Assembly (NCBI RefSeq): GCF_900403705.1 | Contig: NZ_OUNR01000022.1 | Span: forward strand, 62,001-126,000 | DNA: 64,000 nt | Source: Nitrospira lenta | GTDB taxonomy: Bacteria; Nitrospirota; Nitrospiria; Nitrospirales; Nitrospiraceae | Reading direction: 5' to 3' | Shown here: piece after piece, positions 19,611 to 30,805 of the stretch | How the letters are laid out: each line of letters starts with the position of its first letter | Numbering within the stretch: the first letter of the stretch is position 1 | Program-made: the position numbers and the translations under genes | Notes under the pieces: generated by a model | What the model was told of the DNA's origin: nothing | Seen by the model: the letters and a program-made list of their open reading frames with translations, nothing else | Databases searched by the model: none

Positions 19611-20522
19611 ATGATGAATGCTGACTCTATCGGGAAACAACCGGTGACGACGGATATACCTGCACTACGCCTGGCCCGCCGCTACCATGTCGGCTGGACC
19701 GTCGTCCTCTTTCTCTCCATCGTGGTGGGAGCTCTCCTCGCGATCCCAACCTATGCCTATTTCTACGATTACTCCTGGCTGGACTGGACGCTGTTCGGCA
19801 TCCTCTACCTCATCAGCGGCCTTGGAATCACCGTCGGCTACCATCGCCTCATGTCGCACCGCAGTTTCGATTGCCCCAACTGGGTGAAAGGCGCACTGCT
19901 CATCGCAGGCGCATGGGCGTTACAAAACAGTGCCATCAAGTGGACCGCAGACCACCTTCGCCACCACGCCCAATGCGATCAGGAAGGCGATCCCTACAAC
20001 GCAAAGCTGGGGTTCTGGCATAGCCATTGTGGATGGCTTTTCGCAGAACGGAAATATGATGACGTGCAGTATGCCTCCCGTGTCGCGCAGGACCCAGTAG
20101 CCATCTGGCAACATAAATACTATGCACTCATCGTACTGGGCGGCCTGGCACTCCCATTTGCGATCGGCTTCATAGCAGACGGATGGGTCGGCGGCATCGG
20201 CTGTTTTCTGCTCGCCGGCGTAGGCAGAACCTTTGCTGTCTTGAACTCCACCTTTTGCATCAATTCCATTTGTCACATCTGGGGGAGTCAACCCCACGGA
20301 ACAAAGGATTCCAGCCGCGACAGCTGGTTCGTCTCGTTGATTACGTTCGGAGAGGGATACCACAACTACCATCACATGTATCCAAGTGACTATCGCAACG
20401 GGCCTAGATGGTATGACTTCGACCCCTCAAAATGGCTTATTTATGGGCTATCCATGCTCGGACTCGCCAGCGGGCTCCGAACGGCATCGGCGGCTGGAAA
20501 CAGCCCATCACGGCAGTCCTAG
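19611..20522 (+). CDS. Acyl-CoA/lipid desaturase (delta-9 type), copy 1
   Basis: A 303 aa di-iron membrane desaturase that puts double bonds into fatty acyl chains. The three histidine boxes are HRLMSHRSF, DHLRHHAQCD and GYHNYHHMYPSDYRNGPRW. Hydrophobic pairs lie near residues 28-75 and 165-205. It shares long identical stretches with the second copy at 23601-24458 (LGITVGYHRL, DWTLFG). Two adjacent ATG codons (19611 and 19614) are candidate starts with only a weak AGG before them. Confidence 0.93.
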   Translation: MMNADSIGKQPVTTDIPALRLARRYHVGWTVVLFLSIVVGALLAIPTYAYFYDYSWLDWTLFGILYLISGLGITVGYHRLMSHRSFDCPNWVKGALLIAGAWALQNSAIKWTADHLRHHAQCDQEGDPYNAKLGFWHSHCGWLFAERKYDDVQYASRVAQDPVAIWQHKYYALIVLGGLALPFAIGFIADGWVGGIGCFLLAGVGRTFAVLNSTFCINSICHIWGSQPHGTKDSSRDSWFVSLITFGEGYHNYHHMYPSDYRNGPRWYDFDPSKWLIYGLSMLGLASGLRTASAAGNSPSRQS

Positions 20523-23535: not shown

Positions 23536-23544
23536 ATCAGTCCA

Positions 23545-23580
23545 TGCAAGGAGGAGCGCGTCATTGCACTCCTCCTTGCA
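23545..23580 (+). terminator. Perfect 12-bp hairpin after the RRM gene
   Basis: Arms TGCAAGGAGGAG (23545-23556) and its complement (23569-23580) around a 12-nt loop, 9 nt after the stop. There is no T-run. It sequesters an AGGAGG-like sequence, so the desaturase start was placed downstream at 23601. Confidence 0.6.
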
Positions 23581-23600
23581 TCCACACCTGGACACCCCGC

Positions 23601-24458
23601 ATGCCCATTCCCCCGTCACCAATCACTCAACCGGCCATCCCTAACTATCTGACGACGACGCTCTTCGCTCTTGTCACGGCTGTCGCAATCATCGGCGTGC
23701 CGGCCTTTGGCTATTTCTACGGATACAGCTGGGTCGATTGGACATTGTTCGGCGTGCTCTATGTGGTTACCGGGCTGGGAATCACGGTGGGTTACCATCG
23801 ACTGCTCTCACACCGCAGCTTTGAATGCCGGAATTGGGTGAAAGCCGTGCTCTTAGTAGCCGGCGGATGGGCCCTGGAAAACTCTGCCCTGAAGTGGGCG
23901 GCCGACCATATCCGTCACCATGCCGCCTGTGACCAGGATGCTGACCCCTACAATGCAACCAGGGGATTCTGGTATAGCCACTGCGGATGGTTGTTCTACA
24001 AAGACACGAATGCCAACGACAAATACGCGTCCCGCTTACGCCAAGACTCGGTTGTCATGTGGCAACATCGTCACTACTGGATGATCGTGCTCTCAGGCCT
24101 GGGACTCACGTTTGCAGTGGGTTTTCTCTACAATGGCTGGATGGGCGGGCTGGGATGCTTTCTCCTCGCGGGCGTCGGCCGCGCCTTTGCCGTGCTCAAC
24201 TCAACCTTTTGCATCAATTCAGTCTGTCACCTCTGGGGACGCCAGCCGCACAGTCAGGAAGATTCCAGTCGCGATAGTTGGCTGGTGTCGTTACTGACGT
24301 TCGGCGAGGGTTATCACAACTACCACCACACGCATCAAAACGATTACCGCAACGGCCCCCGATGGTACAACTTCGATCCGTCAAAGTGGCTGATCTTCAC
24401 ATTGTCAAAATTAGGCCTTGCCTCCTCGCTCAGGACCGCAGCCCCTTCCGCGCGTTAG
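23601..24458 (+). CDS. Acyl-CoA/lipid desaturase (delta-9 type), copy 2
   Basis: A 285 aa di-iron desaturase with histidine boxes HRLLSHRSF, DHIRHHAACD and GYHNYHHTHQNDYRNGPRW, and membrane pairs near residues 20-60 and 145-185. It is a close paralogue of the copy at 19611-20522. ATG 23601 was chosen because the longer frame begins inside the terminator-like hairpin. It probably raises membrane unsaturation, for example at low temperature. A GCCGTC-ACAACA-GACGGC hairpin overlaps its stop codon. Confidence 0.92.
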   Translation: MPIPPSPITQPAIPNYLTTTLFALVTAVAIIGVPAFGYFYGYSWVDWTLFGVLYVVTGLGITVGYHRLLSHRSFECRNWVKAVLLVAGGWALENSALKWAADHIRHHAACDQDADPYNATRGFWYSHCGWLFYKDTNANDKYASRLRQDSVVMWQHRHYWMIVLSGLGLTFAVGFLYNGWMGGLGCFLLAGVGRAFAVLNSTFCINSVCHLWGRQPHSQEDSSRDSWLVSLLTFGEGYHNYHHTHQNDYRNGPRWYNFDPSKWLIFTLSKLGLASSLRTAAPSAR

Positions 24459-24493: not shown

Positions 24494-25303
24494 TCACGTC
24501 CCAGAAACCGGCTTCCAACCGGTAAGCACACACCGCTGCGCGATCAATGGCAGCACGCCGTCAAGATCTTCCGATACCTGCGTCATGACGCGTTCGGCTA
24601 CTCGTTGATCATCAAAACATTCAAATACGTCGTCGAGAAATCCGCCTCGCAACAACGGATGATGCAAGAGCGCTTGCCCAGGGCCGGTTGCGACCTCCAA
24701 GGGATACTCCGCCGCCTCAATGCGATGGAGGCCGGCTCTATTGAGCCATTCCCTCCCCTCCTCCGCAGAAGGCCGCTCCGCGATATAGGCGTCGAGACGC
24801 CGACGCTCCGCGAGTAGCCCCCACGTCGCCATCTCTTGATCGACCCGGCGCCATAGGGAATCGAAGGTGCCGAGAGATGGAAAGGTCAGAACCATCTGGC
24901 CGCCTGGATTTAGGTGATCCGCTAATCCTTGGATGACGTCGAAGCGGTTCGGACGAAAAAACATGACGGACAGATTGCCGGTGATGCGATCATAGCCGGG
25001 AAGATCCGCCGGCAACGCACGCATGTCGATACATTCAAATCGCAGCCAGGGAAGATGCGAACCCTGAATTGCACGGGCACGAGCCACCTGTCCGGCACTC
25101 ACATCGAGGCTCAGCACCTGTCCGCCAGGACCAACCTGCTCAGCCACGTAGAATGCAGGAATGCCGTGCCCACCCGCCACATCGAGCACCGTGGCACCGG
25201 GCCTCAAATCAAGATGGCGTAACAGCGACTCGGCAAATGGAGTGGACCAGTAATCGTGCTGAGGAAGACGCCAGCGGGATGTCACAATATATTCTCGAGA
25301 CAA
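24494..25303 (-). CDS. Class I SAM-dependent methyltransferase
   Basis: A protein of up to 269 aa with the Rossmann-fold SAM site: motif I VLDVAGGHGIPAF near residues 39-51, an acidic residue ending beta2 in VLSLDVSAG and a LNPGGQMVLTFPS post-motif. Substrate unknown. The layout resembles UbiE-like methyltransferases. The start is uncertain: the frame opens with TTG at 25303 without a ribosome site, and an internal GTG at codon 7 is possible. It stands alone between a convergent desaturase and a small minus-strand gene. Confidence 0.82.
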   Translation of the reverse strand: MSREYIVTSRWRLPQHDYWSTPFAESLLRHLDLRPGATVLDVAGGHGIPAFYVAEQVGPGGQVLSLDVSAGQVARARAIQGSHLPWLRFECIDMRALPADLPGYDRITGNLSVMFFRPNRFDVIQGLADHLNPGGQMVLTFPSLGTFDSLWRRVDQEMATWGLLAERRRLDAYIAERPSAEEGREWLNRAGLHRIEAAEYPLEVATGPGQALLHHPLLRGGFLDDVFECFDDQRVAERVMTQVSEDLDGVLPLIAQRCVLTGWKPVSGT

Positions 25304-26624: not shown

Positions 26625-27983
26625 TTAGGCATGAGGCTTCTCAGTCTGGAGCTTCTTATGCAGATACTTCCGGCTCAGCGTCGTGATGAGAAAGGCCAGC
26701 CCGATGGCGATGGGGACAAACACGGCAGATGCCACATTTGGATTATGCATCCATCCCATTTCATGGAGACCTTTAAAAATATACCCGGCAAGCCCGCTAA
26801 GATAGTACGCGATCACAATCACCGATAGCCCTTCGACGGTATGTTGCAGGATCGCCTGACTCTTCGTCGTCTTGTCCACGCTCATCAGCAACGCCAGATT
26901 CTGAGACTCCAGCATCAAATCGACACGGGTCCGGATAATGGCGATCATTCCCTCAAACCCGCTACTCAGCGTCTCGATCCGCTTCAACAACTGCTGATAC
27001 CCGTCCGCCACGCCAGTCACGCCGCTCAGGACGTAATCGGAGAGCGGCCGATACGGAGCAAACGGCCGCTCGACCATGGACGCGAGTGTGGCATGCACAA
27101 TCTTGTCGTATGGCACCGCCGCCGACAATTCGAAATGGAGCTTCCCGGCCAGCCGGTTGGCCTTCAACAGATCCTGCGTCAAACTATTCAACCATCGCTG
27201 CAACGCCAGCGCATCGGCATGACTGATATGCCCAGTGATGATCTCCCGCTGTTTCAGATGAACTTGCTCGAACTTGTAGACCGAATCGATTGCAGCTGAA
27301 AACAACGGCTTCTGCATCAGCAGCAGATGATAGTAGGTTTCGATTCGCACCACCGCATCCACAATATTCTTGATGTGCGACACATCGATCCGCGGAGATC
27401 CGACATTGACCAAATACCGCTCCCGTCGGTATTCGTCGGGCGTAAAACTGGTCACCACCATGGTCTCGTCGTCGAACATCCGGCTGCCATAGGTGACCGG
27501 CCCCGGCAGCATCTGATGTAACTCGTCACGCGATGGAATCACCTCGGCGCGCAGCACAATATCCAATCGGCAGACCTCTGTCCCCAGCGGAGTAATCGGA
27601 AACTGATAGTTCGGAAAGGTCAACGGTCCGAACGTCACTTGACTGCCGGGCGCTCCCGGCAGATGCCACAATTGATAACTGTAATATTCCGTATGCGCCT
27701 GCCAGACGACGATCAAGCGATCCCCGTTCCCTGCCACCTTGACCGCATACCCGAACGTCTCCCGCAACACCGTATGGTTCGGCGCCATCTGAAACGATTC
27801 CACCAGACGGCGAAACTCTTCGCGGCTCGCCGGGCGCTGCGTCGGAGGATCGGCCATCCGAAACGCCTTGTAGTGCACATGGGCCGGCACCCGCAGCCAT
27901 TCCGTCAACGGAATCTGCGGACGCTCATGTAGCTGATGGATAAGGTCTTCGTGAGAGGACTGATCGATGTCCGGCTGTTCCAT
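26625..27983 (-). CDS. DUF3422 family membrane protein
   Basis: A 452 aa protein that fits the DUF3422 family: N-terminal HEDLIHQLHERPQIPL, FTPDEYRRERYLV in the middle and two C-terminal membrane helices near residues 380-400 and 415-437, separated by a short loop. The large N-terminal part is probably cytosolic. Function unknown. AAGGAGGGTGC precedes the ATG. Confidence 0.88.
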   Translation of the reverse strand: MEQPDIDQSSHEDLIHQLHERPQIPLTEWLRVPAHVHYKAFRMADPPTQRPASREEFRRLVESFQMAPNHTVLRETFGYAVKVAGNGDRLIVVWQAHTEYYSYQLWHLPGAPGSQVTFGPLTFPNYQFPITPLGTEVCRLDIVLRAEVIPSRDELHQMLPGPVTYGSRMFDDETMVVTSFTPDEYRRERYLVNVGSPRIDVSHIKNIVDAVVRIETYYHLLLMQKPLFSAAIDSVYKFEQVHLKQREIITGHISHADALALQRWLNSLTQDLLKANRLAGKLHFELSAAVPYDKIVHATLASMVERPFAPYRPLSDYVLSGVTGVADGYQQLLKRIETLSSGFEGMIAIIRTRVDLMLESQNLALLMSVDKTTKSQAILQHTVEGLSVIVIAYYLSGLAGYIFKGLHEMGWMHNPNVASAVFVPIAIGLAFLITTLSRKYLHKKLQTEKPHA

Positions 27984-28092: not shown

Positions 28093-29280
28093 TCACGAAG
28101 AAAGAATCTCTCCGTAATACGAAGCGAGTTCTGCCCTGCGGTTTGGTTCAACCACGATCAACTGCCGCTGATCGAACGTGTTGGCACAGTAGAGGTAGAC
28201 CAGGCCTTCGGCCGATCCGAGCTCGACATGTAGCTGCCGGCCATCGGACTCCCGGCGAGTCTCTTCCTGCTGTACCAGACGATCCGCAAGCGATTCCCAC
28301 ACTCGCTGTGCAGACGGCCAATGATTTTCGTACAGCGGTATGTCCGGATCTTGCGGATCATGTGGGACTGATCGAAGCATCGTTCGATTGAACGGCACGC
28401 CTGCGTCAGGTTCGGGCTCTTCGTCCCATGCGAGAGGACCGGCACTCCCCTGTTGCATCACATAGAAGGGCCCGTCGTCGGAAACTTCCTCGACAAGCCG
28501 ATACCGAATCAGTTCAGGAAGCTCGATCACTTGCAGGCCCCGTCGCGCCAGCGCCCGTTGAAACGGCACGCGTCGGGCGAGTTGGCGGGTTTTCTCGAAG
28601 ATGACCATCCATCCGCCAGGACTCAGCATCTCGCTAAGTTGGTCTAACCGCACATCGATGCCGATCCGCTGCTCAAACGCGGCCTGCTGCGATTCATCCC
28701 GCGCCCGTTCGAAGGTCGTCCAGTCACGACTCGGTATTCCAGGATCTTGCTCAGCTTGAACCAGCGCATGGGTCGCAATGATCCGATCATACGATCCGCG
28801 AAGCACCTCGACGTCTACATCGAGGCACTCAAAGCGCACATTAGTTAGCCCCAACTCAGTGGCTTTCGATTGCGCCACGGCAATCGATCTGGGCGACCGA
28901 TCGATCCCCACAAACTGTGTCTCCGGAGAATGCCTCGCATAGAACGTGGTGAGAATCCCCACCCCGCACCCAAAATCCAACACCGTCCCAGCCGGAGCGA
29001 TTCGAGACAGCACCCGGCTGCCGATCTCCATGAAATACTCGTAGCGTTGGCTGTAAAGGACGGGAAGAATATGCGGTTCCGCCGTCAGATCGTAGAAAGC
29101 CATTTCGTCCTGACGAGCGCCGCTGCGCTTCCGCTCGACCTGCGCAGTGAGCCGATTCAGATCCTCCGCCGACAGCGTCGCGCGTTGCCAGGCGAAATAG
29201 TCCGCATCAGACGAAAACGATCGAAGGCCCCATTGGGCTAGGTGGGCATGAAGTTGATCGAGCGAGACTGAACTGTTCAT
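28093..29280 (-). CDS. SAM-dependent methyltransferase
   Basis: A 395 aa protein with a class I SAM-binding core: motif I VLDFGCGVGILTTFYA near residues 98-113, acidic FVGIDRS, FECLDVDVEVL and LSPGGWMVIFE. A C-terminal extension of about 130 residues follows the methyltransferase fold and is unrecognised. Substrate unknown. The N-terminal 90 residues contain many charged residues and no signal. It is separated from the ProA-like gene by 157 nt, in which I see no feature. Confidence 0.78.
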   Translation of the reverse strand: MNSSVSLDQLHAHLAQWGLRSFSSDADYFAWQRATLSAEDLNRLTAQVERKRSGARQDEMAFYDLTAEPHILPVLYSQRYEYFMEIGSRVLSRIAPAGTVLDFGCGVGILTTFYARHSPETQFVGIDRSPRSIAVAQSKATELGLTNVRFECLDVDVEVLRGSYDRIIATHALVQAEQDPGIPSRDWTTFERARDESQQAAFEQRIGIDVRLDQLSEMLSPGGWMVIFEKTRQLARRVPFQRALARRGLQVIELPELIRYRLVEEVSDDGPFYVMQQGSAGPLAWDEEPEPDAGVPFNRTMLRSVPHDPQDPDIPLYENHWPSAQRVWESLADRLVQQEETRRESDGRQLHVELGSAEGLVYLYCANTFDQRQLIVVEPNRRAELASYYGEILSS

Positions 29281-29437
29281 GGATCTCTTGCAGGGGATGC
29301 GTCGACATCCTCAACGCCTGATCAAAACGTGTTCCAGTGAGGCCGCAAGGAGGGAGAGCCACGAGGCGTACATCCTTGGGTACGTCGAGTGGATCGAGCG
29401 ACTGAGAACAAAGCTGGAGCGCGTTTTCAGCAGGCGA

Positions 29438-30805
29438 TCAAGCGCGCTTCAGCATGATGGCGTCTTCATACGTATCCGGCACCGGATGCGGATGGCGCAA
29501 CTGCCCGCCGCCGAATGCCACATACTTCTCGTTCGTCAGCTGTTCGAGTCCGATCGGTCCTTTGGCCTGTACGCGGGACAGATTGAGTCCGATGTCCGGA
29601 CCCATGCCATACCCGTCGCCTGAGTTAAGTCGCGTGGAGGCATTGACCATCACAGCCGTCGCATCCACCTCTCGTGAAAAACGCATCGCGGAATTATAGT
29701 CAGACGTGGCAATCACCGCCGTCAGACAAGGCCCATGGGCGGCAATGTGCGCCAGCGCCTCATCGAGCCCCGCCACCATCTTGATCGCCAAGACCGGTGA
29801 CTGAAACTGCCGGTCCCAGTCTTCGTCGGTGGCCGGAGTGACCGCTTCGTGTCCGGTCATCGCCATTTGCCCCATGAGCGCCACGGTTTTCGGACAGCCG
29901 ATCACCTGAATCTTATATTCTTCAAGCAGACGGCGAATGAGCGCCGCCAAGAATGGCCGCGCCATACCCTGCTGCACCAACAGGGTATCGATGGAATTGG
30001 TGGACGTCGCATGCTGAATTTTCGAATTGATGACGACGTTTTGCGCAATTGGAATATCCACATCCGCATCGACATAGGCATGGCTGATCCCGTAGTCGTA
30101 GCAGAGAATCGGCATCTTGGCCTGCTCATGCATGGCTTTCCGAAGGCCGGGACCGCCACGGGGCACAATCGCATCCACGCTCTTCCCGGCACGCATGATT
30201 TCCAGCGCCACTTCCTTCTCAGGCCGATCGACCAATAACCAGGCGCCGGCGGGAATACCCGCGCGCTCCGCCTCTTCACGCATGCGCGATTCAATGGCCT
30301 GATGCGTCCGGTTCCATTCGAACGCCGGACGAAAGACACACACGTTCCCGGACTTGAGGCAGAGGGCCAAGGACTCCACGGTAATCAACGGCTTCATTTC
30401 TGAAATCACGCCGACCACCCCGAGGGGCACGCGGACTCGGCTGACTTGCAACCCATCAGGCCGCTCCCATCGCTTGGTCACCGCGCCGACCGGATCCGGC
30501 AAATCAGCGATGAGACGAAGGCGTTCGGCCAGCTCCTTCACATCATCCGGCATCATCCGCACGCGCGTGACCGCTTCCTTCACCCGCTCTCCCCGCAACC
30601 CTTCTCCAAGCAGCGTCTTCCCCACGGCATCGACATCCAACACGTTCGCCGCGAAAATCTGCTCCTCATCCGCTTGCAACCGATCCGCCATAGCCCGCAG
30701 CGCGCGATCCTTCACGGGGCCCGAAAGCAACGCCAATGGACGCTGCACATCGCGGCATGATTTCAACAACTTATCGATGTACATCTTAACGGGAACTTCC
30801 GGCAT
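29438..30805 (-). CDS. ProA-like aldehyde dehydrogenase lacking the catalytic Cys
   Basis: A 455 aa member of the gamma-glutamyl phosphate reductase (ProA) branch of the aldehyde dehydrogenase superfamily. Family blocks are clear: ISEMKPLITVESLALCLKSGN, IVPRGGPGL and SRVQAKGPIGLEQL. Where ProA enzymes read about QRP-S-x-C-N, this protein reads QHATSTNSID, with Thr at about residue 269 in place of the nucleophilic Cys. It also carries a C-terminal extension. It is therefore unlikely to be a normal proline-pathway ProA. No proB is nearby. ATG 30805 was chosen because GGGGGG lies just upstream. Confidence 0.8.
   Translation of the reverse strand: MPEVPVKMYIDKLLKSCRDVQRPLALLSGPVKDRALRAMADRLQADEEQIFAANVLDVDAVGKTLLGEGLRGERVKEAVTRVRMMPDDVKELAERLRLIADLPDPVGAVTKRWERPDGLQVSRVRVPLGVVGVISEMKPLITVESLALCLKSGNVCVFRPAFEWNRTHQAIESRMREEAERAGIPAGAWLLVDRPEKEVALEIMRAGKSVDAIVPRGGPGLRKAMHEQAKMPILCYDYGISHAYVDADVDIPIAQNVVINSKIQHATSTNSIDTLLVQQGMARPFLAALIRRLLEEYKIQVIGCPKTVALMGQMAMTGHEAVTPATDEDWDRQFQSPVLAIKMVAGLDEALAHIAAHGPCLTAVIATSDYNSAMRFSREVDATAVMVNASTRLNSGDGYGMGPDIGLNLSRVQAKGPIGLEQLTNEKYVAFGGGQLRHPHPVPDTYEDAIMLKRA

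Follow-up and report, generated by a model that had tools for sequence, protein, structure and literature searches.

A cysteine-less ProA paralogue and its constant methyltransferase neighbour in the Nitrospirales

A 64,000-nucleotide stretch of the Nitrospira lenta genome, referred to below as the window, encodes a paralogue of gamma-glutamyl phosphate reductase (ProA) that lacks the catalytic cysteine. We coined the label ProA2 for this Cys-less paralogue. ProA2 is an old paralogue, conserved at the level of the order in two families (f1 and f2) of the Nitrospirales, and the sequence makes it near certain that it does not work as a ProA. With a probability of roughly 0.5, ProA2 is an ALDH-fold pseudoenzyme, older than the split between f1 and f2, that has a function other than proline synthesis and works with the methyltransferase encoded next to it. 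Both the invariant methyltransferase neighbour and the order-level conservation of ProA2 go beyond the first-pass annotation of this DNA. The genome that contains the window is assembled in 22 contigs and is 99.98% complete. The features of the locus are listed in Table 1.

Table 1. Coordinates of the ProA2 locus in the window.
Feature	Positions	Strand	Description	Basis
ProA2	29438..30805	-	Cys-less gamma-glutamyl phosphate reductase (ProA) paralogue, 455 aa	homology, alignment, model
Active-site segment	29987..30016	-	QHATSTNSID, residues 264-273; includes the Thr269 codon	alignment
ProA2 C-terminal tail	29441..29494	-	residues 438-455, absent from canonical ProA	alignment
Intergenic gap	29281..29437	-	between ProA2 and methyltransferase, co-directional, 157 bases	
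Partner methyltransferase	28093..29280	-	395 aa; SAM-dependent, class I; lies downstream of ProA2	gene order, family, model
Methyltransferase C-terminal domain	28096..28338	-	about residues 315-395, PLYENH...YLYCANTFDQRQ	

The ATG start of ProA2 aligns with the starts of its homologues, and the protein is homologous to E. coli ProA (8zok_A) over its whole length (E 9.7e-80). In the alignment with this characterised ProA, from which the numbering of the catalytic cysteine (C253) is taken, the position opposite the cysteine is occupied by Thr269, encoded by ACC at 30001-29999. The earlier claim that the active-site segment contains no cysteine holds exactly, down to the bases. Cysteine is missing from the catalytic position in three overlapping sets of ProA2: the 44 aligned genomes (Ser in 19, Ala in 13, Thr in 7, Pro in 5; Cys 0/44), the best 80 of 168 records from named genomes (Ser in 47, Ala in 21, Pro in 7, Thr in 4, Gly in one; Cys 0/80) and all 30 ProA2 loci. 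With Ala, Pro and Gly at this position besides Ser and Thr, a conserved substitute nucleophile is excluded in ProA2. Two other cysteines, C149 and C304, are invariant in the 44 ProA2 sequences. Their equivalents are also present in all 21 Cys-bearing ProA of the Nitrospirota, in addition to the catalytic residue. Another cysteine as the nucleophile of ProA2 was rejected on these grounds. Without the catalytic cysteine, the known chemistry of ProA is unavailable to ProA2.

The losses extend beyond the nucleophile. Compared with the 21 canonical Nitrospirota ProA and E. coli ProA, the residues lost in ProA2 are R72, Y119, R122, N124, R249, T252, C253, E257 and E312. Y119, R122, N124, R249 and T252, which lie near the cysteine and in the YExRPN segment, are kept in 0-5% of ProA2 sequences, and E257 has become Asp in 44 of 44. 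Other positions have been gained, namely W164 (42/44), R222 (44/44) and W330 (44/44). The predicted model of ProA2 matches the structures of ProA from E. coli (8zok and 8zon) and T. maritima (1o20) with TM scores of 0.80-0.82 by query (0.80 for E. coli ProA), and by this model ProA2 appears to keep the ProA fold. The dN/dS values of three ProA2 pairs are 0.024, 0.048 and 0.096, which shows that selection maintains the protein; the pair of canonical ProA corresponding to the ProA2 pair at 0.096 gave 0.087. ProA2 thus combines three features of an ALDH-fold pseudoenzyme, namely the superfamily fold, a catalytic residue lost throughout the lineage and purifying selection.

We scanned genomes for matches of ProA2 grade, with the limit set at E 1e-125; among the matches listed, the strongest canonical one reached 1e-119. 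Such a match was found in 107 of 117 family genomes scanned. Of these 117, 91 have a completeness of 90% or more and a contamination of 5% or less, and all but one of the 91 (G032) have the match. At the same grade ProA2 occurs in 135 of 395 genomes of the phylum, all from families f1 and f2 of one order, with a cut-off at which a ProA2 of lower score could be missed in f3 and f4. A profile of the methyltransferase run over the same 395 genomes also found 135, in f1 and f2 only and none in f3 or f4. The two sets have 134 genomes in common. The exceptions are G382, with a partial ProA2 and no methyltransferase, and G015, with no ProA2 and a methyltransferase at the end of a contig. In a 66-row tree whose root is not known (42 ProA2, 21 canonical ProA from the Nitrospirota and three distant ones), the 42 ProA2 rows form one clade with 100/100 support, apart from both other groups. 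The best 80 of 168 relatives among named genomes are titled Nitrospira, Nitrospiraceae or Nitrospirae/Nitrospirota, with one record titled Nitrosospira.

The methyltransferase is the next conserved gene downstream of ProA2, and is co-directional with it, in 41 of 41 neighbourhoods (the window and 40 others). It also follows ProA2 in all of the best 80 of 168 named records, where the gaps between matches are 30-369 bases; in neighbourhoods without overlap of called genes, the intergenic gaps are 7-254 bases. No other neighbour is as constant, and the genes upstream of ProA2 differ between families. From this gene order and synteny we infer that the two genes form one operon and that their products may act together. 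The methyltransferase has a conserved glycine-rich SAM motif, and its model (mean pLDDT 93.6) has a Rossmann methyltransferase fold, with a best match among SAM methyltransferases to ChlM (Z 17.9, rmsd 2.6 Å, 184 residues aligned). With dN/dS of 0.127-0.182 it is changing faster than ProA2. The matches from a structure search with the whole model were filled by the methyltransferase core. A Pfam scan of 31 members gave methyltransferase families only, and nothing for the C-terminal 80 residues. A diverged second copy of this C-terminal domain precedes it in 17 of the 31 relatives (hhalign probability 97.1%, E 6.7e-11). The pattern LYENH...AQ.W..LP.R...GRQ.H.E.G...YLY.ANTFDQRQ of the repeat domain is found at the C-terminus of the window methyltransferase and in the homologues from loci L055, L058 and L064.

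A role of the pair in defence was considered and rejected: PADLOC returned nothing for ProA2 and a generic methyltransferase match for its partner, which corresponds to residues 93-238 (59 bits against MADS mad2, an anti-phage defence protein) and covers the generic methyltransferase part only. Several other genes of the window were noted. A further protein with a SAM methyltransferase domain (24494-25303, minus strand) lies nearby, outside the conserved pair. Two genes (19611-20522 and 23544-24458, both plus strand) belong to one sequence cluster, and by eye we take the second to resemble a fatty-acid desaturase. A DUF3422 protein (26625-27983, minus strand) adjoins the pair in the window and in two close relatives only.

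In the preferred reading, the pseudoenzyme would bind the methyltransferase and serve it, without catalysis of its own, as a scaffold or as a ligand-sensing subunit, and it might present or license the substrate of its partner. Docking could perhaps involve the unnamed C-terminal domain of the methyltransferase and the PHPVPxxYxDAxML tail of ProA2, in which eight positions (P439, H440, P441, P443, Y446, D448, A449 and M451) are invariant in all 44 sequences. The first-pass annotation had described this extension as long; it exists, but it runs about 17-18 residues past the end of ProA. Proline would be made by ProB and the canonical ProA, the latter encoded on another contig. As a tentative and more specific version, which we would put at clearly less than even odds, ProA2 may be an obligate subunit: a glutamyl or dinucleotide ligand would be bound or sensed in its dead cleft, and its tail would dock on the repeat domain, giving a ligand-gated, order-specific methyltransferase.

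The main rival reading takes ProA2 for a novel enzyme that depends on NAD(P)H and needs no cysteine, for example to reduce an imine or a ketone, with the methyltransferase acting on its product in a two-step biosynthetic operon. We regard this as unlikely, while giving it real weight. It is favoured by the retention of K135 (89%), G137 (91%), N138 (100%), R143 (98%), R200 (98%) and G201 (100%), which from general knowledge of the fold we take to be parts of the presumed dinucleotide-site region. However, the residues at and around the cysteine position vary freely, unlike those of a re-tooled active site. The reading is also favoured by nine f1 loci (L047, L048, L050, L051, L052, L071, L072, L073 and L074) in which one or two B12-radical-SAM genes come directly after the pair, joined by a third radical SAM gene where the stretch reaches that far, an arrangement that suggests modification of a small molecule or peptide. 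Among named models, the B12-radical-SAM genes come nearest to the RiPP C-methyltransferase and PhpK families, without reaching the cut-off of either. The same block is not bound to the pair, since it also occurs in G336, a genome of family f3 in which neither ProA2 nor the methyltransferase was detected. It was set aside as part of the pair, being adjacent in the nine f1 loci and elsewhere in others, and is retained as a lead. In the window genome the block lies away from ProA2, at C20:146318-152010 (7316-13008 of L180), where the two B12-radical-SAM genes are accompanied by a radical-SAM-like gene of 412 aa that has no NCBIfam match. The first gene of the block is 68-86% identical across the order.

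The wider neighbourhood was likewise rejected as a source of function. In f1 the neighbours of ProA2 include an MFS protein and, by eye, what we take to be a threonine-aldolase-like protein and gnd-like and zwf-like genes; in f2 they are presumably rpsB, tsf, pyrH, frr and alr, again by eye. Since the f1 and f2 neighbours differ, only the methyltransferase is informative.

The genome also encodes the canonical enzymes. Besides ProA2, the window genome has one other ProA, on contig C18. It is complete, carries the catalytic cysteine in KAQRPSTCNAMETLLV and is 44% identical to ProA2, so the second, complete ProA that had been suggested as a check is indeed present. A full ProB (445.6 bits) is encoded on contig C1. 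The closed genome of the cultured Nitrospira moscoviensis has the same set of canonical ProA, ProB and Cys-less ProA2, with Gly at the cysteine position of the last, and its canonical ProA is 79% identical to that of the window genome. In another reading, ProA2 would serve proline synthesis as a regulatory subunit that forms mixed oligomers with canonical ProA, or binds ProB, and tunes the flux. The 44% identity within one genome and the conserved overall fold would suit such a role. Yet the constant neighbour of ProA2 is a methyltransferase and not proB or proA, and many positions that are invariant in canonical ProA differ, so that we find this explanation improbable. Among the 129 alignment columns that do not vary in canonical ProA, 56 are retained in at least 90% of ProA2 and 22 in less than 30%. 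No proB was found in the window or within 16 kb of the canonical proA of the same genome. The remark that ProA2 has no proB neighbour is therefore true but not diagnostic, as the canonical gene is equally unlinked and the missing linkage says nothing special about ProA2.

Could ProA2 still be a working ProA, with a Ser or Thr nucleophile or with none? We performed a comparison with curated models, in which ProA2 passes the NCBI equivalog NF001221 (380 bits, curated cut-off 289) and misses TIGR00407 (290 bits, cut-off 317). The score above the NF001221 cut-off speaks for a working enzyme. So do six nearly complete drafts of the family (G090, G114, G075, G054, G045 and G083), in which ProB and ProA2 are present and no canonical ProA was detected, as expected if ProA2 could still serve; this pattern is the main counter-evidence to our reading. 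The missing canonical ProA probably reflects assembly gaps, since these assemblies are split into 20-120 contigs, and all 11 single-contig genomes among the 117 family genomes scanned have two ProA-family genes each. Against a working enzyme, 18 of the 44 aligned genomes have Ala or Pro at the cysteine position. Among the best 80 of 168 named records, 29 have Ala, Pro or Gly there, and N. moscoviensis has Gly. R122, N124, T252 and E312 are lost as well, and a complete, Cys-bearing ProA coexists. A working ProA is thus very improbable. As for a pseudogene or a sequencing or assembly artefact, we found nothing in its favour, and the open frame, the same gene order in two families and dN/dS of 0.024-0.096 allow us to dismiss it.

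The name assigned to such genes follows from the same results. Automatic annotation was expected to call the gene ProA, and the NF001221 pass bears this out, the TIGR00407 miss aside. The first reading had judged this name probably wrong. Our results support that judgement and make the name very probably wrong, because the nucleophile and other invariant residues are lost throughout the lineage and a complete ProA and ProB are encoded separately. As NF001221 accepts a Cys-less ProA2, public genomes of the order probably misname it, and a pathway model that assigns ProA2 to proline synthesis is very probably in error. Nitrospira, which are key nitrifiers, are automatically annotated with two ProA genes, one of which is unable to use the known ProA chemistry. 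ALDH-fold pseudoenzymes are known in animals. Kept in two families with an invariant methyltransferase neighbour, ProA2 would be a clean case of a repurposed enzyme fold, and the pair is open to study with the genes of the cultured N. moscoviensis.

We searched the literature, with subscription journals mostly outside the coverage, and found no report of a ProA pseudoenzyme or of an ALDH pseudoenzyme paired with a bacterial methyltransferase. A search on Nitrospira gave nothing relevant as judged by titles and the starts of abstracts. Several known systems can nevertheless be compared. The ProA of E. coli (8zok and 8zon) and T. maritima (1o20) share full-length homology and the same fold with ProA2, whereas ProA2 has no catalytic cysteine, has lost invariant residues, and has an extra C-terminal tail and a methyltransferase gene next to it. 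The reductase domain of P5CS (ALDH18A1) belongs to the same superfamily branch. In a study of Drosophila P5CS (PMC8963878), the enzyme keeps its cysteine, C598, which is proposed to attack gamma-glutamyl phosphate and to carry the thioacyl intermediate; unlike ProA2, it is fused to a kinase. ChlM (4qdj, Z 17.9) and NodS (3ofk, Z 17.2) share the class I Rossmann methyltransferase core with the partner. The partner differs from them in carrying a further C-terminal domain, which has no Pfam match and occurs twice in 17 of 31 relatives. Finally, human ALDH16A1 is described in PMC10650815 as an ALDH pseudoenzyme without catalytic residues that is thought to act through other proteins. It resembles ProA2 in having an ALDH fold that lacks these residues, and it differs in being an animal protein from a different superfamily branch, with no methyltransferase operon. 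By analogy with ALDH16A1, ProA2 might be hypothesized to act as the non-catalytic partner of its methyltransferase.
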